A stretch of DNA of 64,000 nt from an uncultured Gammaproteobacteria bacterium (lineage in GTDB: Bacteria; Pseudomonadota; Gammaproteobacteria; UBA4575), in contig OX638335.1 of assembly GCA_951812785.1 (NCBI GenBank), positions 323,630-387,629 of the forward strand, in the 5' to 3' direction. The notes under the pieces are model-generated. The model worked only from the letters and a program-made list of their open reading frames with translations. It did no database searches and was not told where the DNA came from. Made by a program: the position numbers and the translations under genes. The stretch's first letter is position 1, and every line of letters begins with the position of its first letter. Of this stretch, positions 9,170-28,203 are shown one piece after another.

Positions 9170-11060
9170 GTTGTGATTTCCGATAAGGCTTTAGTCAGTT
9201 ACACTGGAGGCAGTGGTGTGATCCAAATCTCACCGGTTGTGATTTCCGATAAGGCTTTAGTCAGTAGTCAGTTACACTCCAATCACTCTTGAAAAGTTAA
9301 GACGTGCAGTTGTGATTTCCGATAAGGCTTTAGTCAGTTACACTAAGGTGAACTGGGCGGTTTTGTGCAGAGCGGTTGTGATTTCCGATAAGGCTTTAGT
9401 CAGTTACACTCGCGCTAGTACGTGACAACGCGGTTGTGTAGTTGTGATTTCCGATAAGGCTTTAGTCAGTTACACTAAATTGTTTTTGCTTGGCGAAGAC
9501 GGTTTAGTTGTGATTTCCGATAAGGCTTTAGTCAGTTACACTGAAATAATATGAGTTGGGGAGCAATAGGCGGTTGTGATTTCCGATAAGGCTTTAGTCA
9601 GTTACACTTAATCATCGCTATCTTTGTAATCGATATTAGTTGTGATTTCCGATAAGGCTTTAGTCAGTTACACTGACTCAGTAGTCGTGCGCAATATCAG
9701 CTGGGTTGTGATTTCCGATAAGGCTTTAGTCAGTTACACTTGTCATGCCTGGATTCATACATAATTCTTTGTTGTGATTTCCGATAAGGCTTTAGTCAGT
9801 TACACTCAAACAGACAACTGCTGGATCTACAATGATGTTGTGATTTCCGATAAGGCTTTAGTCAGTTACACTAAATTTCCCGTGACGCCGAAACCCTTAA
9901 CAGTTGTGATTTCCGATAAGGCTTTAGTCAGTTACACTGAGTATATAGACGAAAAGCGAGATATAGATGTTGTGATTTCCGATAAGGCTTTAGTCAGTTA
10001 CACTTTGGAGTGTACGATGCAGATGATCCGATCGGTTGTGATTTCCGATAAGGCTTTAGTCAGTTACACTACTGCTGTGCGTTTATCGATCAGACCAGGT
10101 GTTGTGATTTCCGATAAGGCTTTAGTCAGTTACACTTCGGCTATCAGATTACAATAGTCGACGACTGTTGTGATTTCCGATAAGGCTTTAGTCAGTTACA
10201 CTTGAGTAGTCTACACCCTATACATTGTCCACGTTGTGATTTCCGATAAGGCTTTAGTCAGTTACACTTGTGAAATCTTGGTTAAGAGTTGGTGCGGAGT
10301 TGTGATTTCCGATAAGGCTTTAGTCAGTTACACTTGAGTAGTCTACACCCTATACATTGTCCACGTTGTGATTTCCGATAAGGCTTTAGTCAGTTACACT
10401 TGTAAAATCTTGATTAAGTACGGGAGCTGAGTTGTGATTTCCGATAAGGCTTTAGTCAGTTACACTGCCAACGTTAGTGTCAGTGGCCCCAGTACGGTTG
10501 TGATTTCCGATAAGGCTTTAGTCAGTTACACTATCACCGCCTGGCACAATTTCAGGCTCGTAGTTGTGATTTCCGATAAGGCTTTAGTCAGTTACACTAA
10601 AGCGGGATCTACAAGCCGAGTCGGCACGGTTGTGATTTCCGATAAGGCTTTAGTCAGTTACACTTCTAGCGTCTGGTGATACGACATTAAGATAGTTGTG
10701 ATTTCCGATAAGGCTTTAGTCAGTTACACTCGTGCGTCTGGTGATACGACATTTAGATATGTTGTGATTTCCGATAAGGCTTTAGTCAGTTACACTTCAA
10801 AATCAACAGACTCGCAAACAGTCGCAGTTGTGATTTCCGATAAGGCTTTAGTCAGTTACACTCAATCCGCGCGAGATGCAAATTAAGGTAGAGTTGTGAT
10901 TTCCGATAAGGCTTTAGTCAGTTACACTTATTAAGTGATTGCCCAATGGCCATAATTTGTTGTGATTTCCGATAAGGCTTTAGTCAGTTACACTACATTA
11001 CCGTTCGTGCCGTCGTTACTTGTCGTTGTGATTTCCGATAAGGCTTTAGTCAGTTACACT
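9170..11060 (+). CRISPR. Type II-C CRISPR array, 29 repeats and 28 spacers
   Basis: 36-bp repeats begin GTTGTGATTTCC and end GTCAGTTACACT, spaced every 66 bp with 30-bp spacers throughout. All copies look identical except the second (9236-9278), which carries a 7-bp tandem duplication (AGTCAGT). Spacers 10203-10232 and 10335-10364 are identical, and two other pairs are near-matches. The tracrRNA anti-repeat shows that crRNAs are read from the plus strand, toward cas2, opposite to the cas genes. Repeats end in TACACT, a possible -10 element placed as in Neisseria repeats that carry their own promoters. The array starts directly inside TonB receptor coding sequence with no obvious leader. A weak GGGTT/AACCC hairpin (11062-11076) follows the last repeat. 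Confidence 0.99.
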
Positions 11061-11097
11061 TGGGTTCTAATAACCCTTTGTATGAAAAAGAGTTTTT

Positions 11098-11120
11098 CAG
11101 TTTTTTCTCAAAAAAAACTG
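11098..11120. terminator. AT hairpin at the cas2 stop
   Basis: CAGTTTTTT and AAAAAACTG arms form a perfect stem around CTC and span the cas2 stop codon. It lies between the convergent array and cas operon and could end transcription on either strand, but the stem is AT-rich and weak. Confidence 0.35.
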
Positions 11121-11440
11121 ATTTGTTCTGGTGCTGTTTCTGTAGGTGTGCGAATTTTTCCATAGAATATCTGGATGCGGGAAAACTGTTTGTCTGTGAT
11201 GGTCATTATACGGACTTCACCATCTGGCGGTAGCCAGTGTTTGATCCGTTTTGTGTGTACTTGTGCATTTTCATCGCTAGCACAGTGTCTGATGTAGACA
11301 GAATATTGCATCATCATGAAACCTTCGTCTAATAGGTTCTTTCTGAATACGCTGTATTCCTTGCGAGCTTGTTTTGTATTGGTAGGCAAATCAAAAAGTA
11401 CAACCACCCACATAGTTTGATAACCCCCAAACGTTGTCAT
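11108..11440 (-). CDS. cas2: CRISPR-associated endoribonuclease Cas2
   Basis: 110 residues (101 from the internal Met). MWVVVLFDLPTNT is the first strand of the Cas2 ferredoxin fold with its conserved Asp. The middle EGFMMMQYSVYIR and GEVRIMTITDKQF match type II Cas2 proteins. Cas2 forms the spacer integration complex with Cas1. The ATG at 11440 overlaps the cas1 stop (ATGA); the start at 11413 (MWVVV) is an alternative because Cas2 usually begins there and GGGGG lies upstream. Confidence 0.95.
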   Translation of the reverse strand: MTTFGGYQTMWVVVLFDLPTNTKQARKEYSVFRKNLLDEGFMMMQYSVYIRHCASDENAQVHTKRIKHWLPPDGEVRIMTITDKQFSRIQIFYGKIRTPTETAPEQISFF

Positions 11441-12336
11441 ATCAATTCAATAAATGGAATTTGCAGTTGTTGTTCTTCACCTTGTAACACGCGCTTGAAA
11501 CTGGCAGTGTATTCATGCAGGGCTACCATTAGCGGTAGTTGGCGCTGATTCATTAATACGCTAGCACTTACCAGCTCTAGAAGTATTTTTTTACTTTCTT
11601 GGTTTATCTCTAATTCTGATTGTTTGAAATTTTGCAGATAAGTTTGCACTTGCCAGTCGACCATAGGGCGTAGTGGTTCCATTAAGTCATCAGATAAACA
11701 AAAAGCGTTGTATTGATTGGTGTGATGTATTCCCAGGGCGGGGTGTAAGCCTGCGGCGCAAATCGCACGTGCCACACTGGCGCGAATAATGGCATAACCA
11801 TAATTAAGAAAGGCGTTTACTCCGGTCTCATCAGGGTTGCGACGAAATTGTTTATCAAAGAGTTTGCGCCAGTAGTATTGTGCGGCTTGTGCCTCTTTGT
11901 TATCTGTATCGTCACTTTTTACTCGTTTTGCCATAGTAAATAAGGCTTGAGCCTCTTGTTCTGAGTATAGTGCAAGTACTCTGGCCTGTGCTTCTATTTT
12001 GGCTTGCACGATCTGTTGCCAGACACGTTTTTTTATTGGCAATTTAGCGGTCATTTGGGCTTTCAGGACAGCGCTATGCGTCGTATTGTTGTCTAAAGGT
12101 AGTGTATAGGCGCAGGGCATATAACGATGATCACAATGAATGATGGCGGCTTTGTTTTCAATCAGGCGGGTGGTAACAGAACTAGTGAGGATGATCTCTC
12201 TATGACTTAGTAGCAAGATGCCAATGTCCTCAATGGGTGCAGTGCCAACCTGTTTGCCTCCTTGCTCAATGCAAAGCTGATTTTGTTTGATTTTGAGATA
12301 GCTGGGATGGTTGATTTCAATGATCCGTTTGATCAT
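11437..12336 (-). CDS. cas1: CRISPR-associated integrase Cas1, type II
   Basis: 299 residues, the normal length for type II Cas1. Features include the N-terminal beta domain (IIEINHPSYLKIKQNQLCIE), the helical domain with NYGYAIIRASVARAICAAGLHPALGIHH around residues 175-205, and MEPLRPMVDW. The conserved His of LGIHH and the acidic residues after it form the metal site that joins new spacers to the array. It overlaps cas9 and cas2 by four bases each, so the three are one translationally coupled operon with no Cas4 or Csn2, which defines subtype II-C. Confidence 0.97.
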   Translation of the reverse strand: MIKRIIEINHPSYLKIKQNQLCIEQGGKQVGTAPIEDIGILLLSHREIILTSSVTTRLIENKAAIIHCDHRYMPCAYTLPLDNNTTHSAVLKAQMTAKLPIKKRVWQQIVQAKIEAQARVLALYSEQEAQALFTMAKRVKSDDTDNKEAQAAQYYWRKLFDKQFRRNPDETGVNAFLNYGYAIIRASVARAICAAGLHPALGIHHTNQYNAFCLSDDLMEPLRPMVDWQVQTYLQNFKQSELEINQESKKILLELVSASVLMNQRQLPLMVALHEYTASFKRVLQGEEQQLQIPFIELI

Positions 12337-15300
12337 TTTATAACATTAATAATACCGGAATTAATTTTACGCATATCAAAATTATTTATTAATACGTTGA
12401 TAGATTTTAATAACTGCTCTTTTTCGTTGTCTAATTTTGCCGCAGTATTTAGTCTTAAGCCTAAGATATTCTCATTAGGTTGAAATTTTTGCACCCTGTA
12501 AAATTCTTTTACTCCTTCCACTTCTACACTTACCATATCGTTTATGCATAGCACCATGTGTAGTGCCCACTCTTTGCCATGTTCGGTTTGTACATAACTT
12601 TTATCTCCTCGACGTAAACGTTGTGCCGCTTCCCATGTGGTGACAAAATTAGACTTATATTTGAAATTACCTTTTTTATCAGGCTGAGTAGATTTTAAGA
12701 TTTCCACATGATGATTATTGCCGAAGGGATAGTATTTGTAAGGTTTCCCTTGAGTGTTTTTTATAGGTAGAAACGAGTTTTCATTAAATTTTTTAGAAGC
12801 AATAATTCTTACGTGGCGTACACGCCCCTGATTGGGTAAGAAGTAAAATGGGTGTTCATTTGAGAAAGCGACTTTGGGTTTGCCTTCATATTTTTCAAGA
12901 TGTTCGTATAGTTTTTTCTTTAGTGTAGGGTCAGCGACTTTAGCTATTTGCTTTTCTGTAAAATCACCATTTAATGGCTTTCGGTAGACGACTTTTTGTT
13001 GATTTTTTTCAGAATGTTGTTGTACGCTATAAGCGGTTTGTTCATGCAGTGCGCCGGCGATACGACGGCGCGGGGCATGGGAGATAATGACATTATCTAG
13101 CAATGAACTCACATCTAATCTAAAGCTGTTCCAAGGAGCATCAAGATTTAAAGCAATACTGCTTGCATCATCTTTATATTTTGCTTGTGTGCTGATTCTT
13201 TGATAGAGGCTACGATCTGTTAAAGCGATAACGATAGCGTCGATTAAATGATGTCGATGATCGCTACGGTCTTTTATGTCATTGGGACTAATAATAGTGT
13301 TTAATCCCCATTCATGTCTAAGCCATGCAGTAAAATTTCCTTTGCTGATACTGACAGCTTTATATGCCGTGTTTGTATCATATAGCTGTTTGACATAATG
13401 CAATACTTCGCGTGATAAGTAGCGTGTATCACTTAACTGGCTATTTAAAAAATCATCATTTTTAAGTTCTTGAATATAAAAAGCGTTGCGCTTTTGGTTG
13501 TTTTTAAATGCACGGATGGATTGTTTAATATTTTCATATTGTTTGGTGTCATGCCAGGCTTCGTAAGGGGTACGGTTACCTTTGTCACGATTGGTTTCTG
13601 CAAAGCATACGACTTTATTAACAAAACTATCGTTGAGTGTGCGACTAAATGGCAGGATGTGATCTATTTCAATGTCTGCACTAAATAATTGGGTAAGAGA
13701 TATACTTTTGTTGCTGTAAACACATATTTCATCTGCTTCTTTCCATAACCGATATTTAATTAAATCGGCTCTGGAAGGATAGTGAGATAACCTAAGGTGA
13801 GGGTTTTTATTGCGAATATTTTCATATTGTTCTCTTGCCTGATCATTAGCTTTTTCATTAATTTTTTGTTGTTTTTGGTATTTTTCCTTTTGTGCCTTAG
13901 ACATTTTAATGTCACGAGCCATTTCAATTCGAATAGCGTCAGGTTTACCATATTTATGAATGATTGCATTTATTACTTTGCGTGTTTCGCACAAAGCACG
14001 ATGTACAACAGGGTTTGGGATATGTGGAGGTAAGCTTAACTGACTCAATGCCTGACTTTCTTCTTGTCCATTGTCATAACCTGCATCAACTTTAGCTTTG
14101 CTTAATTCCATTCCTTGTTGCATGTAAGAAAGTAATTTATTAGTCGCTTTGGTAGATAGATTCGCTATGCCTTGTTCCAGATCAGAAGTCGCGAGCTTGA
14201 TGGCTTGTTGAGCGGATAATTTCCAATGGTCAACCAATCTGTTTTTTAGACCTCGTTTATCACTAATAGTGATGAGGTCTTCTGCTAGTTGGTGTCGTTG
14301 TTCCCCAGAAAAGTTGTTCCACTGTTCACCTATGATTTTGTAAATAGTGCACGCTGTGAGGCAGCCTGTAATATGTTTTTTACTTTCTTCTAAGTTAAAG
14401 TGAACAGTTTTATCAAAGCCAAGTTTCTTTCTAATGGCAGCCCAGCTAAGTGTTTTTTGCTGTTCTAAAATTGAAGCAAGAAGTTGTTTGTCTTCTAAGT
14501 TTAATACTTGGTATTCCCCTGTTAAACGATTGATATACGCTAGGTTATTCAAATCTTGCCAATAACGGTAACGTTGTACATTAGGCCAGGCTTTTCTAGC
14601 TCTGGGACGTTGTCTTTCTAATGAGCAACGACCGAGGCGGTCGGCAGCTAGTTTTAGTGGTCTTTGTTTGAATAATAGTTTTTCGATTTCTTTTTTAAAA
14701 TCTTCATCTTTAACGACGGAGTGATGATTTGATTGTGCTTGCCAAATCAGTTGCAGTTCTTGTTGGTACATTTTGCGTTCAGTGTGGCGTGCCCGTTTGC
14801 GCTCTTCAAGAGGTAATTGAGCTAAATATTCTCCTAGTGTTCTTGCATTGCTCTCTTTAATTTGTTGGTATAAGTCAGCAATTTCTGCTTTCATACCTTT
14901 TTCTTCTTTTGCCTGTTCTTCAGAAAGGGTGATGTCCTCGTTAGACTCCAATGCTTGTTCAGCTTGTATTTCAAGAAAGTCAGGGTCGTCAATTAGGGTT
15001 CCCCATAAAGTTTTTCGATTGCTTTGAAACCCACGGCGAGATGCCATGTGCAGAATAATACGGCCATACTCATATGGCGTTAGACTTTTATCTAGTGCTT
15101 TACGCCGAAGCTCATAGGGGTCGCCAATGCGATTTAATAAGAATTCGGGAGAAGTATTATTTTGTAGTTCATGGGGCAGTAGTTTTTTGGAAACCAGAAA
15201 ATTGAGAGTTCGTTGCTTTCGGCGTCTTCGTCTTTGGATTACCCGTCGTGCCAGACGAGCGTTTCGTCTTGCCTGATTTTTTGGTGTGGGTGTTTTATCT

Positions 15301-15431
15301 TCAACAGATTTGGTGAAGATGCGTACACCGCCATCAATGATTTTGTCAGGCGAGGTATTGATTTCTTCGATAAGTGCCCAGCCAATTGAGTTGGTGCCAA
15401 GATCTAGCCCTAGAATTTTCTTACTTTTCAA
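12333..15431 (-). CDS. cas9: Cas9 endonuclease, compact type II-C
   Basis: 1032 residues, in the small II-C size class. RuvC-I is ILGLDLGTNSIGWALI at residues 5-20. The Arg-rich bridge helix (RRNARLARRVIQRRRRRKQR) is near 55-80. RuvC-II (IRIEMARDI) is near 497, the HNH core (IEIDHILPFS ... NRDKGNRTP) near 585-620 and RuvC-III (HHLIDAIVIAL) near 732. The C-terminal wedge/PAM-interacting part follows. All catalytic landmarks are intact, so the protein should be active. It uses the tracrRNA encoded just upstream on the opposite strand and spacers from the array behind cas2. The PAM cannot be read from this sequence. Confidence 0.98.
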   Translation of the reverse strand: MKSKKILGLDLGTNSIGWALIEEINTSPDKIIDGGVRIFTKSVEDKTPTPKNQARRNARLARRVIQRRRRRKQRTLNFLVSKKLLPHELQNNTSPEFLLNRIGDPYELRRKALDKSLTPYEYGRIILHMASRRGFQSNRKTLWGTLIDDPDFLEIQAEQALESNEDITLSEEQAKEEKGMKAEIADLYQQIKESNARTLGEYLAQLPLEERKRARHTERKMYQQELQLIWQAQSNHHSVVKDEDFKKEIEKLLFKQRPLKLAADRLGRCSLERQRPRARKAWPNVQRYRYWQDLNNLAYINRLTGEYQVLNLEDKQLLASILEQQKTLSWAAIRKKLGFDKTVHFNLEESKKHITGCLTACTIYKIIGEQWNNFSGEQRHQLAEDLITISDKRGLKNRLVDHWKLSAQQAIKLATSDLEQGIANLSTKATNKLLSYMQQGMELSKAKVDAGYDNGQEESQALSQLSLPPHIPNPVVHRALCETRKVINAIIHKYGKPDAIRIEMARDIKMSKAQKEKYQKQQKINEKANDQAREQYENIRNKNPHLRLSHYPSRADLIKYRLWKEADEICVYSNKSISLTQLFSADIEIDHILPFSRTLNDSFVNKVVCFAETNRDKGNRTPYEAWHDTKQYENIKQSIRAFKNNQKRNAFYIQELKNDDFLNSQLSDTRYLSREVLHYVKQLYDTNTAYKAVSISKGNFTAWLRHEWGLNTIISPNDIKDRSDHRHHLIDAIVIALTDRSLYQRISTQAKYKDDASSIALNLDAPWNSFRLDVSSLLDNVIISHAPRRRIAGALHEQTAYSVQQHSEKNQQKVVYRKPLNGDFTEKQIAKVADPTLKKKLYEHLEKYEGKPKVAFSNEHPFYFLPNQGRVRHVRIIASKKFNENSFLPIKNTQGKPYKYYPFGNNHHVEILKSTQPDKKGNFKYKSNFVTTWEAAQRLRRGDKSYVQTEHGKEWALHMVLCINDMVSVEVEGVKEFYRVQKFQPNENILGLRLNTAAKLDNEKEQLLKSINVLINNFDMRKINSGIINVIK

Positions 15432-16152: not shown

Positions 16153-17010
16153 TTAAACTAATGATTGGGCGATTAAAGAAGCTTCTTCAGCGTCAATGAC
16201 AAGAGTGTTGCTTTCAAATAAACGAGCAATACAAGCGCGATGCAATTTGAGTTTGAGTGCGCCAATGCCTATTCCACCAAAAATACGTTTGCCAAATCTT
16301 TCTTCGTTATTGTCCATCATGTCGATGCCTTCAAAACCAGGTATACGTCCAGTGCCTACATCAGCAAGTACTTCTAAGTCGGGATGGTTTTGCCATTGTT
16401 CAGCACGTAATAGCTGAATGCCTGATTTACCTGCACCAAAAACGATTTGTGCGTTGTCTAATGCGTTAGCAATGGAGTTGTCATCGGCAGCTACCATGGG
16501 TTCTAGTTTCACACCAAACTCTCTATCCATCAATTCACAAGAATGTTCTGATCGTTCTAATTGGCGTGATGTTAATCGTACGTTTGCTCCTTTCATTGCA
16601 AGCATTACGGCTGCGCGTTGTCCGACTGGGCCGGTGCCGGCTAATACAACCGCAGTTTTACCTTTTACATCAATGCTATTGGAAATTAATGCAACACCTG
16701 CTGCCGCAGTGGTATTACATCCATTACTGTCTAGCATTATAGAAACTCGAAAGTTACTAAAAAAAAGATTTTGTACAGTGGTAAATAATTCTTGTCCAGA
16801 AGCTAAATCACTACCCCCAATGAAAATAGCAGTATTTTTTTTATGCTTCGGTGCACGTGTATAAATTGCACCTTCTACTAGTGGCAGACAATTCTTAGGT
16901 GTAATTCCTCCGAGCTGAGTAACATTGTCGGCACCACCGTCATAGGCGACGACGGAATCAAATACACTAGGAATTGCATCTGTATCAAATTGATATAGTA
17001 ATTTTTTCAT
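16153..17010 (-). CDS. mtdA: NADP-dependent methylene-tetrahydrofolate dehydrogenase MtdA
   Basis: 285 residues. The N-terminus KKLLYQFDTDAIPSVFDSVV and the following YDGGADNV are characteristic of MtdA/MtdB. MLDSNGCNTTAAAGV, the Rossmann loop VVLAGTGPVGQRAAVMLA and the C-terminal LKLKLHRACIARLFES follow the MtdA of serine-cycle methylotrophs closely. MtdA oxidises or reduces methylene-H4F/methenyl-H4F and feeds the serine cycle. MtdB is the H4MPT-specific relative; the LHRACIAKLF-type ending and the neighbouring serine cycle genes favour MtdA. No fch gene adjoins it, unlike in Methylobacterium. It follows ppc after a 93-bp gap. Confidence 0.9.
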   Translation of the reverse strand: MKKLLYQFDTDAIPSVFDSVVAYDGGADNVTQLGGITPKNCLPLVEGAIYTRAPKHKKNTAIFIGGSDLASGQELFTTVQNLFFSNFRVSIMLDSNGCNTTAAAGVALISNSIDVKGKTAVVLAGTGPVGQRAAVMLAMKGANVRLTSRQLERSEHSCELMDREFGVKLEPMVAADDNSIANALDNAQIVFGAGKSGIQLLRAEQWQNHPDLEVLADVGTGRIPGFEGIDMMDNNEERFGKRIFGGIGIGALKLKLHRACIARLFESNTLVIDAEEASLIAQSLV

Positions 17011-17103: not shown

Positions 17104-19899
17104 TTACCCGGTCCAGCCTAAGCCGACTGCAACACAGTTAATTGATAGTAGTAATGGCACTAAATTTGACTGTTGTGATTTCTCGCTAGAATCAGTATCT
17201 CTAAATTCTTTTACTAACTTAACTTGTTCTAAACCAATTTGTTTGATGCCGTCAACACGAGTCGCCATAGTGTCATGGAAATTAGGGAATCGTTTGCACA
17301 GTTCAGGTTCTTGAGTAATTTTTAAGATCATTTGTTCAGTTAATTCGCGCTCTGTACTAATTAGATCCATGATTTTCTTGCAGCTGTCTTGATCTTCAAC
17401 CAATGAAGCGTATTCGTTAGCAACGTCAAAGTCGGTTAGGAATAACATTTTTTCAACGTTATCAGTGATCAGTCTGAATATAGGGCACTTCTCAAACATC
17501 TCATGCAACATTGCTAGTCCTTGGTCGCCACGAACACTTAATAACTGTTGAATTGCATTGCCGTAACCGTACCAGCCTGGCACCATCAAGCGGTTTTGAG
17601 TCCATGCAAATACCCACGGGATGGCACGCAAATCATCTAGACTGCTAGCACCAAAACGTCGCGCAGGGCGTGAGCCAATTTTCATTAATGTGAGTTCTTC
17701 AACTGGACTTGCATCTTGATAGAAGTCCACTAGTCCTGGAGTTTCCACTAATCCACGGTAGGTTACCTGAGAAGTCCCCGATAATGCTTCCATAATTTCG
17801 TCATACTCAGCGCGGTTCTGTAAGTTAGGGTCTTGTTGAGAAAATAGTGTATGAGATAGCACGCTGGCTGCAAGTAGTTCCATCTGTTGTTTTGCAACTT
17901 CGCGGTTAGCAAACTTGCCTGAAACCACTTCGCCTTGCTCGGTCACTCTCATGCGGCCATTAATAGTTCCCGCAGGTTGTGCAGCTATAGCGCGTCCGGC
18001 TGGTGCTCCACCACGTGACACTGAACCACCGCGCCCATGGAAGAATGAAATTTGTACGCCGTGTTTTTGCCCAGCCTGGTAAATTTTTGTCTGTGCTTTG
18101 CTGACCTCCCAAGTTGAGCAGACACAGCCACCATCTTTATTTGAATCAGAGTATCCCACCATGATTTCTTGGTGGCCGCCACTATCTTTGATAGTGCGTT
18201 GAATGAACGGAATATCAAGCAAGTCTTCTAAAATCGCTGGGCCATTGCGTAAATCGTCGATAGTTTCTAGCAGTGGCACAATTAAAATACGGCACGAGTC
18301 GACATGTTTATCACCAGTGAATAGACCAGCGTACTTAGCTAGTAAATACACGCCGATGACGTCTTCACTAGATTGAGTCATACTCAAAATGAATACACCA
18401 AAGGCATCACGATCAATTTTTTCTTGTAGTGTTACGATTAAGTGCATTAAGTCTAAAGTGGCAGCGCTCATGTCGGTGAGTGTGCTGAATTGTGGAAGTC
18501 TGTCTAAAGGCTCTTTTAATTTCTCTAATAACCACTGGCGCCATTCTTTGCTTTCTTTGGCTGGAGGTTCTTGATCATCACCATTTTGAATTTTCCAAAT
18601 ATCTTGTAGTGCTTGTGTGGTCACTGTTGAATTCTGTCTTAAATCCAAGCTGGTAGTGTGGAAGCCAAATGCTTCTATCCCGTGTCGAAAGGGGCGAATA
18701 TAATTCATACATAAAGATTCACACTTGGCAGCGATCAAGCCATCTTCAATTACGCGCAGATCGTCTGCTACTTCACTAACAGATTTGTAAGCGATGTTTT
18801 GATTGCTATCTGTTGATAGCTGATAAAGGTTGGCGGTAAGTCGTTTTATTATGCAGTAAACAAGTTGTCTGAATACTTCACCAGGATTTCGAGATTTAAT
18901 TGTTTCTGCATCACCGCTCTTTTCCAGAATAGAATTCAATTGGTCATAAAAACTCTCTGGTAATTCCACTGAATGATTAGCGATACTTAGATATGAACCT
19001 AACTCTCTAAGCTCGGTTAAATAGTGTTGTAGAGTGGCTTTAGCAGATTGCTTAACCGCATGTTCGGTGACTTCTGTAGTAACAAAAGGGTTTCCATCGC
19101 GATCACCGCCAATCCAAGAACCAAATTGAAAGAAAGCGGACACATTAAATTTTTCACCAGGGTAGCAGGTGTTTAGTACTCGTTCTAATTCTGAATACAG
19201 TTCTACTACACCTTCATACAAAGATTCTTTAAAGAAATGCATGCCCCAAGAAACTTCTTGTTGAACGGTTGGTTTTTCTAAACGAATTTCACCGGTTAAC
19301 CAAAGCAAATCAATTTCATCGCGTACTTTTAATTTTAGCATTGCTCTTTCGCGTGGTGTGGAGCGATCTTTTTCAAGTTGCTTGAGAAGCATGTAGATAC
19401 GGTGATGTATTTCTAATACCGTCACACGTTTAGCTTCAGTAGGGTGTGCGGTAATGGTGGGTAAAACCGATGAGTTTTCTAATACATTTTGCAATTGATC
19501 AGCGCTAACCCCTTCACTTGCTGCCTGTGAAACAACTTGCGAAAACGTTCCAGGAACTTGGTCGTGGCCAATTTCAGTTTCAATTAAACGTAAACGCTTT
19601 TCGTTGACATGTTGATCTAGTGTAGATAGGAGCTGGAACCATATTCCGTAAGCTTGTAACGAATAAGTAAGTAATGTCTCATTAGAATGACGTAGTTCTT
19701 GTTTACCAAGAATAATATCTTCGATTTCTGGGCTGCGCTTGCGAATAACGTCGAGCAAGCTGTTAAATAATAACTCAGATACTTCGTCGCCGTACTTTGA
19801 AACGCGTTCAGAGATAGATGCGCTGCTGGAAACAGAGACAAACTGAGTCCAGTTAGATAAAAATGATTTTATCGACATAGATTTTTTCTTGGTAGACAT
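17104..19899 (-). CDS. ppc: Phosphoenolpyruvate carboxylase
   Basis: 931 residues, full length. Active-site motifs are TAHPTEAKRVTVLE (His, near 152), GYSDSNKDGG (near 575) and FHGRGGSVSRGGAP (near 605-618, the bicarbonate/PEP loop). The C-terminus is usually NTG; here the protein ends GLGWTG. The enzyme makes oxaloacetate from PEP and bicarbonate, the CO2-fixing step of the serine cycle. It sits between mtdA and hprA, separated from hprA by a hairpin terminator. Confidence 0.97.
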   Translation of the reverse strand: MSTKKKSMSIKSFLSNWTQFVSVSSSASISERVSKYGDEVSELLFNSLLDVIRKRSPEIEDIILGKQELRHSNETLLTYSLQAYGIWFQLLSTLDQHVNEKRLRLIETEIGHDQVPGTFSQVVSQAASEGVSADQLQNVLENSSVLPTITAHPTEAKRVTVLEIHHRIYMLLKQLEKDRSTPRERAMLKLKVRDEIDLLWLTGEIRLEKPTVQQEVSWGMHFFKESLYEGVVELYSELERVLNTCYPGEKFNVSAFFQFGSWIGGDRDGNPFVTTEVTEHAVKQSAKATLQHYLTELRELGSYLSIANHSVELPESFYDQLNSILEKSGDAETIKSRNPGEVFRQLVYCIIKRLTANLYQLSTDSNQNIAYKSVSEVADDLRVIEDGLIAAKCESLCMNYIRPFRHGIEAFGFHTTSLDLRQNSTVTTQALQDIWKIQNGDDQEPPAKESKEWRQWLLEKLKEPLDRLPQFSTLTDMSAATLDLMHLIVTLQEKIDRDAFGVFILSMTQSSEDVIGVYLLAKYAGLFTGDKHVDSCRILIVPLLETIDDLRNGPAILEDLLDIPFIQRTIKDSGGHQEIMVGYSDSNKDGGCVCSTWEVSKAQTKIYQAGQKHGVQISFFHGRGGSVSRGGAPAGRAIAAQPAGTINGRMRVTEQGEVVSGKFANREVAKQQMELLAASVLSHTLFSQQDPNLQNRAEYDEIMEALSGTSQVTYRGLVETPGLVDFYQDASPVEELTLMKIGSRPARRFGASSLDDLRAIPWVFAWTQNRLMVPGWYGYGNAIQQLLSVRGDQGLAMLHEMFEKCPIFRLITDNVEKMLFLTDFDVANEYASLVEDQDSCKKIMDLISTERELTEQMILKITQEPELCKRFPNFHDTMATRVDGIKQIGLEQVKLVKEFRDTDSSEKSQQSNLVPLLLSINCVAVGLGWTG

Positions 19900-20022: not shown

Positions 20023-20991
20023 CTATACCAACTTGTCTCGTGGGGTTTCGCCCGCGAAGAATGCTCTTAAGTTTTCTAAAACACGTTCGCCCATAGCAAT
20101 TCTTGTTTCTATGGATGCACTACCGAGGTGCGGTAGTAGTACGGCATTTTCACAATCTAGGAAACCTGGATCTAGTTTAGGCTCACCTTCAAACACATCA
20201 AGACCCGCGCCTGCAATTGTGCCATTTTTCAGTGCAGAAATGAGGGCTTGGTTATCGATGACGTCACCACGCGCAGAGTTAATTAACACTGCGTGTTTTT
20301 GCATCATGCCAATACGTTCTTCGTTTAAGAGGTGGTACGTGTCTTTCCCGCCCGGGCAATGTAGTGATACAAAGTCAGATTTCTGTAACACGTCTTCAAC
20401 ACTCATTTGAGTCGCGCCAAACTTATTAATGACTTCCTGTAGCGGTGGGTATGGATCACTGAAGACAATATTCATCCCGAATCCAAAATGAGCACGTGCG
20501 GCAGTCGCTTGAGCAATGCGGCCGAAACCGATACAGCCTAGGGTTTTACCCGTGACTTTAGTTGCCATCATGTGGGTTGGGCGCCAGCCAGTCCATTCGC
20601 CACTGCGAAGATGACGTTCACCTTCACCAATTCGTCGTGCTGCAGAAAGCAGCAAGCCCATGGCAATGTCAGCTGTGCAATCTGTGAGTACTTCTGGTGT
20701 GTTAGTAACAGTTAAGCCGCGTGCTTTTGCTGCATCTAAATCAAGGTGGTTATAACCCACACCATAACTACCTATGATTTTTGCAGAGATGTTATCACCG
20801 CTAAGGACATCAGCGTTGACAGGGTCTGTCACAGTAGGACAAAACGCATCACAGTTTGCTAGAGCATCTTTCATTTGCGCTGGAGTCATAGCAACGTCGC
20901 TTTCGTTTAGTTGTACGTCATATAACTCTTTCAACTTCGCCTCAACTGGCTCTGGCCACTTGCGGGTAACAATAACCTTAGGTTTGCTCAT
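20023..20991 (-). CDS. hprA: Hydroxypyruvate reductase (D-glycerate dehydrogenase)
   Basis: 322-residue D-2-hydroxyacid dehydrogenase. NAD-binding loop GCIGFGRIAQATAARA at about residue 149, catalytic Arg in NSARGDVID, Glu in FEGEPKLD and His in LLPHLGSAS. The serine cycle step is hydroxypyruvate to D-glycerate. Its place 27 bp downstream of mtkB, on the same strand, supports this over other family members such as glyoxylate reductase. Confidence 0.92.
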   Translation of the reverse strand: MSKPKVIVTRKWPEPVEAKLKELYDVQLNESDVAMTPAQMKDALANCDAFCPTVTDPVNADVLSGDNISAKIIGSYGVGYNHLDLDAAKARGLTVTNTPEVLTDCTADIAMGLLLSAARRIGEGERHLRSGEWTGWRPTHMMATKVTGKTLGCIGFGRIAQATAARAHFGFGMNIVFSDPYPPLQEVINKFGATQMSVEDVLQKSDFVSLHCPGGKDTYHLLNEERIGMMQKHAVLINSARGDVIDNQALISALKNGTIAGAGLDVFEGEPKLDPGFLDCENAVLLPHLGSASIETRIAMGERVLENLRAFFAGETPRDKLV

Positions 20992-21018: not shown

Positions 21019-21906
21019 CTATAAATCTTTTAACACTTGTTCCATGGTGCTACCCAAATCTGAAGGAGTCGGTGCAACGACGACACCTGCTTCTTTTAGT
21101 AGAGCAACTTTCTCAGCAGCACTTTCACCAACACCAGAAACAATCGCGCCGGCATGACCCATACGCCGTCCCTTAGGGGCTGTTAAACCTGCAATGTATG
21201 CAACTAATGGTTTAGTCACATGGTTCTTGAAGTACTCAGCAGCTTCAGCTTCTTGAGGACCACCAATCTCACCAATCATCATCACAGCTTTAGTGTCTGG
21301 ATCATTTTCAAAATGTTCTAGGATGTCACGGTGTGAACTACCGTTGATAGGGTCACCACCAATGCCGACACTGGTGGTAATTCCGATGCCGCGTTCTTTC
21401 ATTTGAGATGCAGCTTCATAACCTAATGTGCCAGAACGACCAACAACACCCACGTTACCTTCCATATAAATGTGGTCAGGCATGATACCTAGCATGGCTT
21501 TCCCTGGGCTGATGGTGCCAGCACAGTTAGGGCCAGTAAGAACCATACGGTCTTCTTTCTTGTATCGGTACATGTAACGTTTTACCGTCATCATGTCTTG
21601 AGCAGGAATACCATCAGAAATTGCCACGCAGTATTTAATGCCTGCATCCGCCGCTTCCATGATTGAGTCCGCTGCAAACGCGGCAGGTACGAAGATGATG
21701 CTGGCTTCAGCACCGGCTTCCTGAACCGCTTCTTTGACAGTATTGAAAACAGGTTTGCCTAAGTGTTCTCGGCCACCTTTTCCTGGAGTGACACCACCGA
21801 CTAAGTTAGTGCCGTAGTTCATCATCTCTTCCGCATGGAAAGTACCAATTTTACCAGTAAAGCCTTGGACGATGACTTTGGTTTTTTCATTTAATAAAAC
21901 AGTCAT
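21019..21906 (-). CDS. mtkB: Malate-CoA ligase (malate thiokinase) alpha subunit
   Basis: 295 residues, homologous to succinyl-CoA synthetase alpha. CoA/NAD-like loop VQGFTGKIGTFHAEEM, GPNCAGTISPG, the cysteine-free RSGTLGYEA segment, and the active-site GHAGAIVSG with the phosphohistidine. The wording GGVTPGKGG and LTAPKGRRMGHAGAI closely follows MtkB of methylotrophs. With MtkA it activates malate to malyl-CoA using ATP and CoA. It is 23 bp downstream of mtkA. Confidence 0.93.
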   Translation of the reverse strand: MTVLLNEKTKVIVQGFTGKIGTFHAEEMMNYGTNLVGGVTPGKGGREHLGKPVFNTVKEAVQEAGAEASIIFVPAAFAADSIMEAADAGIKYCVAISDGIPAQDMMTVKRYMYRYKKEDRMVLTGPNCAGTISPGKAMLGIMPDHIYMEGNVGVVGRSGTLGYEAASQMKERGIGITTSVGIGGDPINGSSHRDILEHFENDPDTKAVMMIGEIGGPQEAEAAEYFKNHVTKPLVAYIAGLTAPKGRRMGHAGAIVSGVGESAAEKVALLKEAGVVVAPTPSDLGSTMEQVLKDL

Positions 21907-21929: not shown

Positions 21930-23105
21930 CTATGCGCCAACGGCTTGGTTACGAGCTTCTACTACTTTTTCAGCGGCTTCAGCGAGTGTATGAGCAGAGA
22001 TAATTGGCAGTCCACTTTCGTCAATGATTTTTTGTCCTTGCTCGACGTTAGTCCCTGAAAGACGTACAACCAATGGAACTTTTACTTCAACTTGCTTGAA
22101 CGCTTGAACAATACCTTCTGCAATCCAGTCACAACGGTTAATACCTGCGAAGATATTGACAAGGAATGCTTTAACGCCTTCGTCAGCCAATACTAGTTCG
22201 AACGCTTTAGCCACACGCTCAGGAGATGCACCACCACCAATATCTAGGAAGTTAGCGGGTTCACCACCTTTGTGTTTAATCATGTCTAGAGAAGCCATCG
22301 CTAAACCAGCACCATTAATCATGCAGCCAATGTCACCATCTAAGCCAACATAACTTAAACCATAGTCAGACGCTGCTGTTTCGCGAGGATCTTCTTGAGA
22401 TTTGTCACGTAGTTCTGCAATTTGAGGGCGACGGAATAAAGCGTTTGAGTCAAAGGCCATTTTTGCGTCAAGTGCACGAATGTGTCCACCTTTGGTGACG
22501 ACTAGAGGATTGATTTCCACCATGGTGGCGTCAAGCTCTGTAAAAGAACGATAAGCCCCTTTAAAAGTTTTTACTGCCTGAGTAATAAGTGCCGGTGGTA
22601 GGTTTAGCTTGAATGCTATTTCACGTGCCTGGAAATCGGTTAGACCTACTTGAGGTTCGATTTCGGTACGAATTATCGCATCAGGATTGGTTGCTGCGAC
22701 TTCTTCAATATCCATGCCGCCTTCAGAAGAGACGACCATAGCCACGCGTTGTTTAACGCGATCTAACACCAACGCAACGTAAATTTCACGTTCAATATCG
22801 GCGCCTTCTTCCACGTATAAGCGGTAGACGACTTTTCCCTGAGGGCCGGTCTGGTGAGTCACTAGCGTCCTCCCTAACATTTCAGTTGCAGCGGCTAGAA
22901 CTTCATCTTCACTAGTACAGACTTTAACGCCACCGGCTTTACCGCGTGCACCAGAATGAATCTGGGCTTTCACAACCCATTTGTTTCCACCAATTTCTTT
23001 GGCACGATAAACCGCTTGTTCCGGGCTGTAAGCTAGGCCGCCTGGGGCAATGCTTACGCCGAACTTGGTTAATAGCTCTTTAGCTTGATACTCGTGGATG
23101 TCCAC
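21930..23105 (-). CDS. mtkA: Malate-CoA ligase (malate thiokinase) beta subunit
   Basis: 391 residues, ATP-grasp protein like succinyl-CoA synthetase beta. [17 protein letters not shown] opens the family; [17 protein letters not shown] is the nucleotide site, MVEINPLVV supplies the metal ligands, and [22 protein letters not shown] form the subunit interface. Context (mtkB, hprA downstream, mclA upstream) assigns it to malate activation rather than the TCA cycle. A hairpin with a T-run lies 25-60 bp upstream of the start. Confidence 0.93.
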
Positions 23106-23306: not shown

Positions 23307-24248
23307 CTAGTTTTTTGCAGCAATTGCTGCTGCTGCATTAACCACATTTTCTGCCATTTTGGCTGATGCAGCGTCGATCATTTTGCCATCTAATGTTGCT
23401 GCACCTTGACCAGCTTTAGCGGCTTTATCAAGTTCCTCAAGAATGCGATGTGCTCTGTCAACTTCTTCTGCTGGTGGAGAAAATACTTCATTCGCCAATG
23501 GAATTTGTGATGGGTGGATTGCCCATTTGCCTTCAATACCTAGTGCAGCACCACGACGACATGCAAGTGTGTAAGCTTCAGGGTCTTTGATGTCACCAAA
23601 TGGACCGTCAATGGGACGCAATCCGTATGCGCGACAAGCAACCACCATACGTGAAATCGCTGAATGCCATTGATCACCAGGATAATCCGGGTTTAAGCCA
23701 CCGATATTCACCGTACGTGCCCGGCAACTAGCAGAGTAGTCCGCGACACCAAAGTGCAGGGCTTCCAGGCGTGGGCTAGATTGTGCAATGGCTTCTACAT
23801 TCGCCATGCCTAGAGTCGTTTCAATGATGGCTTCTATGGCTATTTTATTTTTAAACCCTTTCGCTTCTTCGATTTGGGTCAGTAGCGCATCCACCATGTA
23901 GACATCAGATGGGACGCCTGCTTTAGGAATAAAAATAGTATCTAGTTTGCTACCCGCCTGTTCAACCAGGTCAATTACGTCACGATACATATAATGTGTA
24001 TCAAGACCATTAATGCGTACAGCAATGGTTTTTCCTTTGCCCGCCCAGTCGAGACCATTAACGGCTTCGATAGCATTTTTGCGTGCCTGCACTTTGTCAC
24101 CAGGAGCAACGGCATCTTCTAAGTCTAAAAATACGAAGTCTGCGTCGCAGTCAACTGACTTTTCAATCATTTTGACGTTGGAGGCAGGTACTGCGAGTTC
24201 ACATCGCTGTACTCTTTGTCTGGCAGGTGTAGGTTGTGTAAAACTCAT
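23307..24248 (-). CDS. mclA: Malyl-CoA lyase
   Basis: 313-residue CitE/HpcH-like aldolase. RCELAVPASNVKMIEKS, the acidic cluster FLDLEDAVAPGDK, AVRINGLDT, and HFGVADYSAS (with the metal-binding acidic residues) mark the malyl-CoA/beta-methylmalyl-CoA lyase branch. KWAIHPSQI near 240 is the conserved C-terminal lid segment. It splits malyl-CoA into acetyl-CoA and glyoxylate, closing the serine cycle. It lies 18 bp after sgaA. Confidence 0.93.
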   Translation of the reverse strand: MSFTQPTPARQRVQRCELAVPASNVKMIEKSVDCDADFVFLDLEDAVAPGDKVQARKNAIEAVNGLDWAGKGKTIAVRINGLDTHYMYRDVIDLVEQAGSKLDTIFIPKAGVPSDVYMVDALLTQIEEAKGFKNKIAIEAIIETTLGMANVEAIAQSSPRLEALHFGVADYSASCRARTVNIGGLNPDYPGDQWHSAISRMVVACRAYGLRPIDGPFGDIKDPEAYTLACRRGAALGIEGKWAIHPSQIPLANEVFSPPAEEVDRAHRILEELDKAAKAGQGAATLDGKMIDAASAKMAENVVNAAAAIAAKN

Positions 24249-24266: not shown

Positions 24267-25523
24267 TTATTTATTAGCTCTACGCTTAGCTTTAGTTTTA
24301 GGAGCAGCCGGAGCTTTGAATGCCGGAATAGCTTTAGCAGTCTTGCGATAATATTCGCATGCTGCACCTGTGCCACTTCCCGGTTTGATGCGAATACCCG
24401 CATCACGCATTGCCATTTCAACGCCACCTAATGCTGCCATCATGCGGACATCATTGTTGTCTCCAAGGTGACCAATACGGAATACTTTGCCTGCAACTTG
24501 AGTCAGGCCGGCACCTAATGAAATGTTATATCGATGGTACGCAATATGAATCACTTCTGCGGCGTTAACACTAGGTGGAGCCATGATTGCAGTGACAGTG
24601 TCTGAATTCCATTTTGGAGAAGCTGCACATGTCTTTAGACCCCATACTTTAACTGCTTTTCGCACACCCTCTGCTAAACGGAAGTGACGTGCATGCACAT
24701 TGTCTAAACCTTCACTTAATAGCAAATCAAGTGATGCGCGTAGACCGCGTAACATGGGTACTGAAGGAGTGTATGGGAAGTAGCCGCCTTCATTTGTGCT
24801 GAGGTGATCTTTAATATCTAAGAAGCATTTCGCGCACTTTGAAGATTTGTGCTTGGCAAGTGCTTTTGGGCTGAATGCTAGAAGTGCCATACCTGCGGGA
24901 AGCATGAAACCTTTTTGAGAACTACTAACTGCGACATCGACGCCCCACTCATCCATGCGGAAATCGATACTTGCTACAGAACTTACACCGTCAACCATTA
25001 ATAGTGCAGGGTGCTTAAGATCTTTTTTCATCGCTTTGCCAAGTGCTGCAATATCACTAGTAACACCTGTCGCCGTTTCATTGTGACATGCAACAACGGC
25101 TTTAATCTTACGTTCTTTATCTGCACGCAGACGTTTTTTGATTTCCATTACTGGAACACCCTCACCCCAAGGGACTTCAATGACCTCAACGTCAAGACCA
25201 ATACGAGTGACTAAGTCAAACCATAGGTGACTGAACTGGCCAAAACGTGATGTAAGAATTTTGTCGCCTGGAGATAGCGTGTTAGCTAATGCGATTTCCC
25301 AGCCCGCTGTTCCAGTTGCAGGAAAAATAAAGCACTGGCCTTTTTTAGTTCTGAAAATTTTCTTTAAGTCTTCTAATAAAGGCTTAACTAACTGAGGAAA
25401 ATCTGGCGCACGATGGTCTTCTTGAGGCACATTCATTGCAGTCAACACTTGATTAGGAATGTGTGTTGGCCCAGGCGCAAATAAATAATTTCTTCCAGGG
25501 TAACTGAGTTTTTCGCCAGGCAT
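24267..25523 (-). CDS. sgaA: Serine-glyoxylate aminotransferase
   Basis: 418-residue class V PLP aminotransferase. PLP lysine is in AVSSSQKGFMLPAG (near residue 203), the aspartate in LLMVDGVSSVASID, and the N-terminal GPTHIPNQVLTAMN fits serine-glyoxylate/alanine-glyoxylate aminotransferases. It converts serine plus glyoxylate to hydroxypyruvate plus glycine. The C-terminus carries a basic Lys/Ala/Pro tail (AFKAPAAPKTKAKRRANK) not needed for catalysis. A striking dyad lies in its upstream region, and it begins the sgaA-mclA pair. Confidence 0.94.
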   Translation of the reverse strand: MPGEKLSYPGRNYLFAPGPTHIPNQVLTAMNVPQEDHRAPDFPQLVKPLLEDLKKIFRTKKGQCFIFPATGTAGWEIALANTLSPGDKILTSRFGQFSHLWFDLVTRIGLDVEVIEVPWGEGVPVMEIKKRLRADKERKIKAVVACHNETATGVTSDIAALGKAMKKDLKHPALLMVDGVSSVASIDFRMDEWGVDVAVSSSQKGFMLPAGMALLAFSPKALAKHKSSKCAKCFLDIKDHLSTNEGGYFPYTPSVPMLRGLRASLDLLLSEGLDNVHARHFRLAEGVRKAVKVWGLKTCAASPKWNSDTVTAIMAPPSVNAAEVIHIAYHRYNISLGAGLTQVAGKVFRIGHLGDNNDVRMMAALGGVEMAMRDAGIRIKPGSGTGAACEYYRKTAKAIPAFKAPAAPKTKAKRRANK

Positions 25524-25735: not shown

Positions 25736-26590
25736 TTAGTGTGATCTAGGCAACACATCCTGAAGAGTTGCTGCGAGAATGGTGTTTTCTAATAAACAAG
25801 CAACGGTCATTGGGCCGGTGCCTCCAGGCATAGGAGTGATGCCGCCAGCAATTTTACTCACTGCATCACAATCAACATCACCTTGAATTTTATCGTCTAC
25901 TCGAGATACGCCAACATCAAATACCATGGCACCGGGTTTGACAAAATCTGCTTTGATAATAGCGGGCACGCCAACGGCGGCCACTAAAATATCAGCGTTT
26001 TTACATACTTCAGCTAAATCGTTTGTGCGTGAGTGGGCAAGAGTGACTGTCGCGTCTGCACCTTTTTCAGATAACAACAGCATTTGCGGTAAACCAACCA
26101 AAGAAGAGCGACCTACTACCACTGCATTACGCCCGCTTGTTTCAATATTGTAAGCTTCAATTAAACGAATAACGCCTAGTGGTGTACATGGGACTAATTG
26201 TTTGTGGCCTTGTAGCAGTCGTCCCATATTGACGTCAGTTAAGCCATCAACATCTTTGTACGAGGGGATTTTGCTGAGCATTCTTTCTTTATTTAAATGC
26301 TTGGGTAGCGGTAACTGAACCAGAATGCCATGAACATCGTCGTCGTCAGCTAATAATGAAATCTGTTCTTCTAAATCTCTTTGGGAAATGTTTTCGTCAA
26401 GATCAATGTGCTTGGAATGAATGCCCGCCGCATTGGCTTCGCGGTGTTTCATGCCAACATAGAGCTGGCCTGCGGGGTTATTGCCTACAATAACAGTGGC
26501 AAGAGTGATTTTTGTATTTGGGAAGTGCCCTAATTGGGATTTAATTTTATTGCGTATATCAGCCGCAACTTTTTTGCCGTCGATGATCAA
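25736..26590 (-). CDS. folD: Bifunctional methylene-H4F dehydrogenase/methenyl-H4F cyclohydrolase
   Basis: 284 residues, standard FolD length. Folate-site Tyr/Lys in GQLYVGMKHREANAAGI, VQLPLPKHLN, NADP loop VVGRSSLVGLP and the end motif GGITPMPGGTGPMT. The start appears to be TTG at 26588-26590 giving MIIDGK, as no ATG lies in the right place. Being bifunctional it can supply the cyclohydrolase activity that an absent fch would otherwise provide. It lies between sgaA and the Ftr-like gene, suggesting a role in C1 supply to the serine cycle. Confidence 0.95.
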   Translation of the reverse strand: MIIDGKKVAADIRNKIKSQLGHFPNTKITLATVIVGNNPAGQLYVGMKHREANAAGIHSKHIDLDENISQRDLEEQISLLADDDDVHGILVQLPLPKHLNKERMLSKIPSYKDVDGLTDVNMGRLLQGHKQLVPCTPLGVIRLIEAYNIETSGRNAVVVGRSSLVGLPQMLLLSEKGADATVTLAHSRTNDLAEVCKNADILVAAVGVPAIIKADFVKPGAMVFDVGVSRVDDKIQGDVDCDAVSKIAGGITPMPGGTGPMTVACLLENTILAATLQDVLPRSH

Positions 26591-26647: not shown

Positions 26648-27571
26648 TTAGTCTTTAGGTTGTTTGCTTGGGTCTAAATAGATGAAACTCTTACCCAATT
26701 TACCGTTGTAATTTCCTGCAGAAATCATCATTAAGCCATCGGTGTCTTTAGATGCATTGATAGCGGCTTGAGTAGCCTTAACGATGCAGTCCATGTCGCG
26801 ACCGTTCATGATAATTTCCATCACCGAGTTTACACCTTCAGGTAAGCCATGCTCAACATCTGGGTGATCTTGTAGTAATGGGCAGAATTTTTCGTAGGTA
26901 CTTGCAATAGTGAAGTCGTAATCGCTACCTGCTTTAGAACCGCTACCCGCAATGCCGCCAGGGAAGGTGGTAATAACGCCATCAATTGGGTGAATTGCTT
27001 CACAGCCTTTTTCGGCAGCTTCCAATGCGGAGTCTGTGTCTTTACCGAAGCACCACAAATTGCCACCCATCAAACCGTCTGCGCGACCTAGACGACGATC
27101 TAAAACAAATTCACCGCCTAAGATAGGGATCCACCACATTTTGCGACCATAACGTTCAATACGCTTTTGGAAGCGATTACCAAAGTAAGCCACTTTGCGC
27201 CCCATGTGATAGTACTCTTCTGAGTCAATCAAGTTGAAGCAAGAAGCGGTTGGGCAAGTCATGATGTTTTGGCTGATGCGAACTAAAGCAGATCTTTCTA
27301 AAGCTTCAACACGGTCTTTGCGGAAACGTGGGATATGTAATTGAATGATTGCACCAGGGCGACCATCTGGAGTGACAAAACTTTCGTCTCCACCCGGGCC
27401 AACATAGCGATCCATACCTGCTTCGCAGTCACATAAGATAGAACTAGAACCGTTTCCAGTTGCAGCATTTACTGCATGGTCTACCCATTTGCGATCTTTT
27501 GCGGTAACTAAAAACTCTACGTAAAGGCTTTTAAACGCTTCTGCATAGGTATCATCAATAACAGCAGTCAT
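26648..27571 (-). CDS. Formyltransferase of the Ftr/FhcD family
   Basis: 307 residues, homologous to formylmethanofuran:tetrahydromethanopterin N-formyltransferase. Matches are DTYAEAF at the N-terminus, TPDGRPG (67-73), CPTAS (106-110), GGNLWCF, FPGGIAGSGSKAGS (203-216), and ISAGNYNGKLG (283-293). The family moves a formyl group from methanofuran to N5 of a pterin. Here it stands without FhcA, B or C and is coupled (TAATG) to a 5-formyl-H4F cyclo-ligase gene, next to folD and the serine cycle. A role transferring formyl to N5 of folate or H4MPT is plausible but inferred. An insertion GPGGDESFV precedes TPDGRPG. Confidence 0.82.
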   Translation of the reverse strand: MTAVIDDTYAEAFKSLYVEFLVTAKDRKWVDHAVNAATGNGSSSILCDCEAGMDRYVGPGGDESFVTPDGRPGAIIQLHIPRFRKDRVEALERSALVRISQNIMTCPTASCFNLIDSEEYYHMGRKVAYFGNRFQKRIERYGRKMWWIPILGGEFVLDRRLGRADGLMGGNLWCFGKDTDSALEAAEKGCEAIHPIDGVITTFPGGIAGSGSKAGSDYDFTIASTYEKFCPLLQDHPDVEHGLPEGVNSVMEIIMNGRDMDCIVKATQAAINASKDTDGLMMISAGNYNGKLGKSFIYLDPSKQPKD

Positions 27572-28203
27572 TAGTCTCTTCCTTTACCGTCATAAACAGC
27601 AGCTTCAGTAACCACTTTATCCATGTATACATCATGTGGCGCAACTAGAACGTTATCGAATAACTGAGATTCATAACCTAATGCAACTAATGGAGCGTCT
27701 GGACGTACTTTCTCTAGAAGACGGTCATAGTAACCTTGACCATTTCCCATGCGACCACCATTACGGTCGAAGCCTACGCCTGGGACTAGCACTAAATCTA
27801 ATTCGCCCGGCTCTACTTCTTTCTCTGGGTTGCCCCACATATCTTTAGGTGGCTCAAGGATGTCCCACTTACCAACAACCATTTCTTCTAGACTTTCCAT
27901 CCACCAAAGGCCAAGTTTATTGTCACCATTTGCATCTTCTGTGCAATAAGGAACGATAATTTTCTTTTCGCCTTTTGCAACTTCGGCTAATAACTCAGGC
28001 TTTGTACGACACTCTGAGCGGCAATCAATGTACCACATAATGCAGTTAGCAGCTTTATACTCGGGAAGAGCAAGAAAGTTTGCTACAGCTTTAGCGCTGA
28101 CTTCATCTTTGTTTTCTTGTGCGTTACGACAGTCATAAGCTTCACGACGCATCTTGTTTTTACGTTCCATGATTGCTTCTAATTCTTCTGGTGTCAGTGC
28201 CAT
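27571..28203 (-). CDS. 5-formyltetrahydrofolate cyclo-ligase
   Basis: 210 residues. The signature LDLVLVPGVGFDRNGGRMGN with GQGYYDRLL (about 136-165) is the ATP/folate site of the 5-FCL family. An N-terminal KNKMRREAYDCRN supplies the basic phosphate-binding residues. The enzyme converts 5-formyl-H4F to 5,10-methenyl-H4F with ATP. It is longer than the generic ygfA product and starts the two-gene unit with the Ftr homologue (stop and start share one base). This pairing suggests a dedicated C1-metabolism enzyme rather than simple folate repair. Confidence 0.88.
   Translation of the reverse strand: MALTPEELEAIMERKNKMRREAYDCRNAQENKDEVSAKAVANFLALPEYKAANCIMWYIDCRSECRTKPELLAEVAKGEKKIIVPYCTEDANGDNKLGLWWMESLEEMVVGKWDILEPPKDMWGNPEKEVEPGELDLVLVPGVGFDRNGGRMGNGQGYYDRLLEKVRPDAPLVALGYESQLFDNVLVAPHDVYMDKVVTEAAVYDGKGRD

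Follow-up and report, generated by a model that had tools for sequence, protein, structure and literature searches.

In the textbook scheme of methylotrophy, free formate is where the H4MPT and H4F pathways join, and the FtfL/Fch route of Methylorubrum converts this formate to 10-formyl-H4F and then to methenyl-H4F. Two other enzymes act at N5: Ftr moves a formyl group to N5 of its pterin, and 5-formyltetrahydrofolate cyclo-ligase (5-FCL), which is a common repair enzyme as well, converts N5-formyl-H4F to methenyl-H4F. In M. extorquens, the FtfL-fed H4F module is indispensable for C1 growth, although in methanol-grown cells its share of methylene-H4F was only about 6% (PMC539335). Because the module is indispensable there, a serine-cycle host that lacks FtfL needs some substitute for it.

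The 64,000-nucleotide stretch analysed here (the window) comes from an uncultured gammaproteobacterium whose genome is a single contig of 2,158,385 bases (2.16 Mb) and is 100% complete. The window carries a divergent Ftr/FhcD-family gene, ftr2, in a run of genes on one strand, which are listed below in gene order.

27571..28203, (-): 5-formyltetrahydrofolate cyclo-ligase (5-FCL), 210 aa (TIGR02727, PF01812, clade)
26648..27571, (-): Ftr2, divergent Ftr/FhcD-family formyltransferase, 307 aa (PF01913/PF02741, tree, conserved sites, predicted fold)
25736..26590, (-): folD, methylene-H4F dehydrogenase/methenyl-H4F cyclohydrolase (PF00763/PF02882, NCBIfam FolD models)
24267..25523, (-): sga, serine-glyoxylate-type aminotransferase (closest NCBIfam model BhcA, 572.9 bits, below the cut-off of 650; role from context)
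23307..24248, (-): mcl, CitE/malyl-CoA-lyase-family gene (profile match; kept in cluster)
21930..23105, (-): mtkA, malate thiokinase beta-type subunit (sequence reading; kept in cluster)
21019..21906, (-): mtkB, malate thiokinase alpha-type subunit (sequence reading; kept in cluster)
20023..20991, (-): hprA, hydroxypyruvate/glyoxylate reductase (glyoxylate-reductase family, 304 bits, below the equivalog cut-off)
17104..19899, (-): ppc, phosphoenolpyruvate carboxylase (sequence reading; kept in cluster)
16153..17010, (-): MtdA/MtdB-family methylene-H4F/H4MPT dehydrogenase, second copy (PF09176, 100.4 bits)

The original prediction described an Ftr/FhcD-family gene that overlaps a 5-FCL gene beside folD and the serine cycle, with no fhcA, fhcB or fhcC at the locus, and both the coordinates and the profiles agree with that description. 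The ATG of ftr2 and the stop codon of the 5-FCL gene share one base (TAATG; GACTAATGACT), and an AAGGA-like motif lies upstream. Like the YgfA/MTHFS enzymes, the linked 5-FCL belongs to TIGR02727 (125.3 bits, cut-off 84.9) and has the ATP-binding glycine motif GGRMGNGQGYYDR. The two subunits read as malate thiokinase are of the succinyl-CoA-synthetase type, and the MtdA/MtdB-family protein is 29% identical to its paralogue (MtdB) in the H4MPT cluster described below. In one genus (g6) of the window's family (loci L050, L052, L055, L057 and L058), the folD gene between sga and ftr2 has been lost, so reduction of methenyl-H4F must there fall to another enzyme. Elsewhere in the window we noted a type II CRISPR system (9170-11100 and 11437-15431), in which an array with about 29 copies of the repeat GTTGTGATTTCCGATAAGGCTTTAGTCAGTTACACT, spaced at a period of 66 bases, adjoins genes for Cas1 and a 1032-aa Cas9 (HNH_4, RuvC_III), and a gene for a 452-aa Fic/DOC-domain protein (62038-63396, (-)).

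Family profile searches of the whole genome found neither FTHFS/FtfL (PF01268) nor FTCD_C/Fch (PF04961), which extends the absence first seen in the window to the entire single contig. The genes fae, mch and fhcABC are all present, in a complete H4MPT/Fhc set at about 1.54-1.553 Mb that consists of fae, a CitG-like gene, a MyfB-like RimK ligase, mch, a MyfA-like ATP-grasp gene, mtdB, RFAP synthase and fhcB-A-D-C, where mtdB, RFAP synthase, fhcB and fhcC are named by sequence and gene order. The full fae-mch-mtdB-fhcBADC set covers all of formaldehyde-to-formate oxidation via H4MPT/Fhc even if Ftr2 is set aside. Two FTR genes occur in the genome: ftr2 and, at 1.551 Mb, a canonical fhcD that adjoins fhcA. 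Since this canonical FhcD stands within fhcBADC, Ftr2 is an extra paralogue: it is neither the missing FhcD of the genome nor, as could have undone the original prediction, the sole FhcD of a full Fhc pathway. The ftr2-linked gene is the only copy of 5-FCL in the genome.

Ftr2 matches both lobes of the family over its full length and above cut-off (PF01913, 136.6 bits; PF02741, 154.4 bits) and exceeds the cut-off of NF002554 (303.6 against 297 bits), and it narrowly misses that of the FhcD equivalog TIGR03119 (286.2 against 292.6). Its predicted monomer (pLDDT 84, pTM 0.84) aligns with archaeal Ftr 1ftr at TM 0.83 over the full length and with 6s6y, the FhcD of a bacterial Fhc, at TM 0.81. It thus has the same full-length fold as archaeal Ftr (1ftr, 1m5h, 1m5s), to which it is about 40% identical by structural alignment, and it belongs to the same family as FhcD, the genome's own copy being 35% identical. 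The catalytic glutamate and the pan-family residues of archaeal Ftr also occur in Ftr2, which retains 55 positions common to nearly all Ftr proteins. Among these is E252, which is invariant in Ftr2 and aligns with Glu245 of Methanopyrus Ftr; in work of 2006 by Acharya and colleagues, Glu245 was reportedly the catalytic residue of the M. kandleri enzyme.

In a tree of 166 proteins (100 Ftr2, 63 FhcD and 3 archaeal Ftr), the three kinds formed separate branches. The comparison with FhcD and archaeal Ftr that the original prediction had called for therefore sets Ftr2 apart as a clade of its own (n = 100, support 100), on a very long branch, which neither groups with FhcD nor adjoins fhcABC. At positions fixed in the other proteins the clade has residues of its own, namely E19 (for Arg), S100 (for Gly), N102 (for Cys), A128 (for Arg/Lys) and A208 (for Val), and it carries clade-specific insertions near 58-65 and 81-83. 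Ftr2 consequently differs from FhcD in lying outside an fhc operon, in scoring below the equivalog cut-off and in these residues and insertions, whereas from archaeal Ftr it differs in its separate clade, its predicted H4F acceptor, its 5-FCL partner and the presence of a separate FhcD in its host. One Ftr2, from a contig binned as a Pirellulaceae MAG (L094), clusters with gammaproteobacterial sequences and is 78% identical to that of the window; this may reflect bin contamination or recent transfer.

A scan of GTDB genomes located Ftr2 in Gammaproteobacteria, in Planctomycetota and in one Methylomirabilis MAG (Methylomirabilota), and a canonical FhcD is also carried by 44 of the 46 Ftr2-positive genomes fetched from these three phyla. 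A 5-FCL gene lies immediately upstream of ftr2, on the same strand, at 68 of the 78 loci with enough sequence, and an adjacent copy is missing at the other 10, including that of Zavarzinella. Z. formosa, a planctomycete available in culture, carries ftr2. Because the pairing recurs in Planctomycetota and Methylomirabilota, it is not a quirk of the window's family. In Planctomycetota, a neighbour count made without prior choice of genes gave 5-FCL as the only true recurrent neighbour family, present at 40 of 60 loci; whatever else clustered there was either rare or made up of shadow ORFs of the same genes. Most of these loci have no serine-cycle genes nearby, which indicates that 5-FCL is linked to Ftr2 and not to the serine cycle; the tie between module and serine cycle that was originally proposed must accordingly be dropped.

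In a tree with long branches and an unsure exact root, the Ftr2-linked 5-FCLs from the three phyla fall into a single clade (96/94), separate from 14 unlinked housekeeping 5-FCLs of gammaproteobacteria; the unlinked 5-FCLs of G138 and G008 (L225, L226), which fall below the profile threshold, are left out of this tree. That the linked enzymes have their own clade indicates that ftr2 and 5-FCL travel as a unit. By these comparisons the pairing is ancient, is beyond chance and has been kept in three phyla. The linked 5-FCL thus differs from YgfA/MTHFS in its own clade, in its link to Ftr2 across three phyla and in the role proposed for it, which would be in a main pathway and not in repair.

Three genomes, G143 (CP070821.1), G402 and G449, encode Ftr2 and Mch but lack a canonical FhcD, and in none of them does an FhcA exceed the cut-off, so Ftr2 can exist without Fhc, although the missing Fhc genes may reflect assembly gaps. 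In G143, 5-FCL-Ftr2-FolD adjoins hprA and an aminotransferase beyond RFAP synthase, the place that fhcBADC holds in the window's genome. G143 also keeps MyfA/MyfB-like genes beside mch. MyfA and MyfB build the glutamate chain of methylofuran (PMC8141765), and methylofuran may therefore still partner Ftr2 in this genome. G402 and G449 (Planctomycetota; L188 and L189) have no 5-FCL adjacent to ftr2.

We next consider the relation of Ftr2 to FtfL and Fch. Among 143 relatives of the window's genome, 34 have an FTR gene, of which 21 encode Ftr2 and 13 a canonical FTR only. FtfL is found in two of the 21, and Fch in none of them; FtfL, Fch or both are found in 12 of the 13. The exception, G010, is a member of the window's own family with a completeness of 82%; 5-FCL is absent from it too, which makes an assembly gap at the locus the probable cause. 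For gammaproteobacteria with an FTR/H4MPT pathway, FtfL or Fch is thus present in 2/21 genomes with Ftr2 versus 12/12 without it (Fisher p = 2.6e-7 by genome, 0.007 with each family counted once), a presence/absence test that kinship confounds, as 18 of the 21 Ftr2-positive gammaproteobacteria belong to one family. FtfL occurs in five of 46 further Ftr2-positive genomes, so that Ftr2 and FtfL are found together in these five as well as in G014 and G102. Within the window's family, a full FtfL is seen in G014 alone (G014:C1:2332900-2334570), possibly as a recent gain, and this genome has kept Ftr2 and its 5-FCL. A Planctomycetota sample points in the same direction (FtfL in 2/19 genomes with Ftr2 versus 13/40 without), and with p = 0.11 we do not use FTHFS absence in that phylum as strong evidence.

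For Ftr2 we infer the following substrates, direction and role. We think it probable that Ftr2 and 5-FCL together act as a bridge that carries formyl groups from the H4MPT/methylofuran pathway to H4F without passing through formate, replacing FtfL/Fch. In the first step, Ftr2 would use H4F as acceptor and yield 5-formyl-H4F, with the pterin N5 attacking the formyl group and the conserved glutamate stabilising the intermediate, as in Ftr. The original prediction left the formyl carrier unnamed, and formyl-methylofuran or, via methylofuran, 5-formyl-H4MPT would be the obvious source. In the second step, which the family strongly implies, 5-FCL would use ATP to convert 5-formyl-H4F to 5,10-methenyl-H4F, trapping the product and making the sequence irreversible toward folate. 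In the third, family knowledge suggests that FolD or an MtdA-type enzyme would supply methylene-H4F to GlyA and the serine cycle. Like the FtfL/Fch route, the proposed one would end in methenyl-H4F, which MtdA/FolD would take on to the serine cycle, at a cost of one ATP in each case, but it would differ in involving neither free formate nor 10-formyl-H4F. As for the initial idea that an Ftr-like enzyme and 5-FCL stand in for FtfL, its genomic predictions have stood (Ftr2 has long been paired with a 5-FCL specialised for it, and the pair and FtfL/Fch almost exclude each other), and the functional reading is partly supported. Against the bridge count the genomes that have FtfL as well as Ftr2, the loci where ftr2 has no 5-FCL next to it, and the usual repair role of 5-FCL, of which this genome has a single copy.

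Alternatively, Ftr2 could work in reverse as a salvage enzyme, taking the formyl group off 5-formyl-H4F, which is an SHMT inhibitor, and passing it to methylofuran for oxidation, while 5-FCL repairs the same metabolite. Both enzymes would then act on 5-formyl-H4F, the Ftr reaction is known to be reversible, and the linked 5-FCL is the genome's only copy. However, the ATP-driven 5-FCL already removes 5-formyl-H4F, and most bacteria manage without Ftr2. This explanation also leaves the serine cycle of FtfL/Fch-less genomes without a folate C1 source and the complementarity with FtfL/Fch unexplained, and in three genomes there is no FhcA to pass the formyl group on, so we regard it as unlikely. 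We give similarly little credence to the possibility that Ftr2 is a second FhcD of normal H4MPT specificity, as an Fhc subunit or isoenzyme, next to a housekeeping 5-FCL that supports SHMT in the serine cycle. The full Ftr fold and the narrow miss of the FhcD equivalog cut-off are what one would expect in that case, but not the very long, fully supported branch with FhcD alongside in nearly all hosts, the separate clade of the linked 5-FCLs, the pairing that Planctomycetota keep at loci devoid of serine-cycle genes, or the occurrence of Ftr2 in genomes without FhcA. A third possibility is direct pterin-to-pterin transfer (5-formyl-H4MPT + H4F to H4MPT + 5-formyl-H4F), in which H4F would occupy what was the methanofuran site and methylofuran would be dispensable. 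It would suit the clade-specific loops and substitutions (E19, H79, P81-F83, S100, N102) and the three genomes that make 5-formyl-H4MPT, Mch being present, yet have no Fhc, but we hold it very improbable: G143 retains its methylofuran-chain genes, and assigning the changed coenzyme site would take ligand coordinates.

In the open-licence literature we came across no previous suggestion that Ftr and 5-FCL make up a route. Extended to all three phyla, the bridge hypothesis holds that Ftr2 and its own 5-FCL constitute an unrecognised, ancient N5-to-N5 formyl bridge that replaces FtfL/Fch and that in some Fhc-less genomes Ftr2 is the sole formyltransferase of its family and perhaps the sole outlet of H4MPT; we hold the chances of this broader version to be roughly even, leaning slightly in its favour. 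If the bridge is real, direct hand-over of the formyl group would mean that aerobic C1 metabolism can be organised in another way. Such a hand-over would account for a serine cycle without FtfL in many uncultivated marine and sponge-associated gammaproteobacteria, and would give the C1 genes of Planctomycetota a concrete role.
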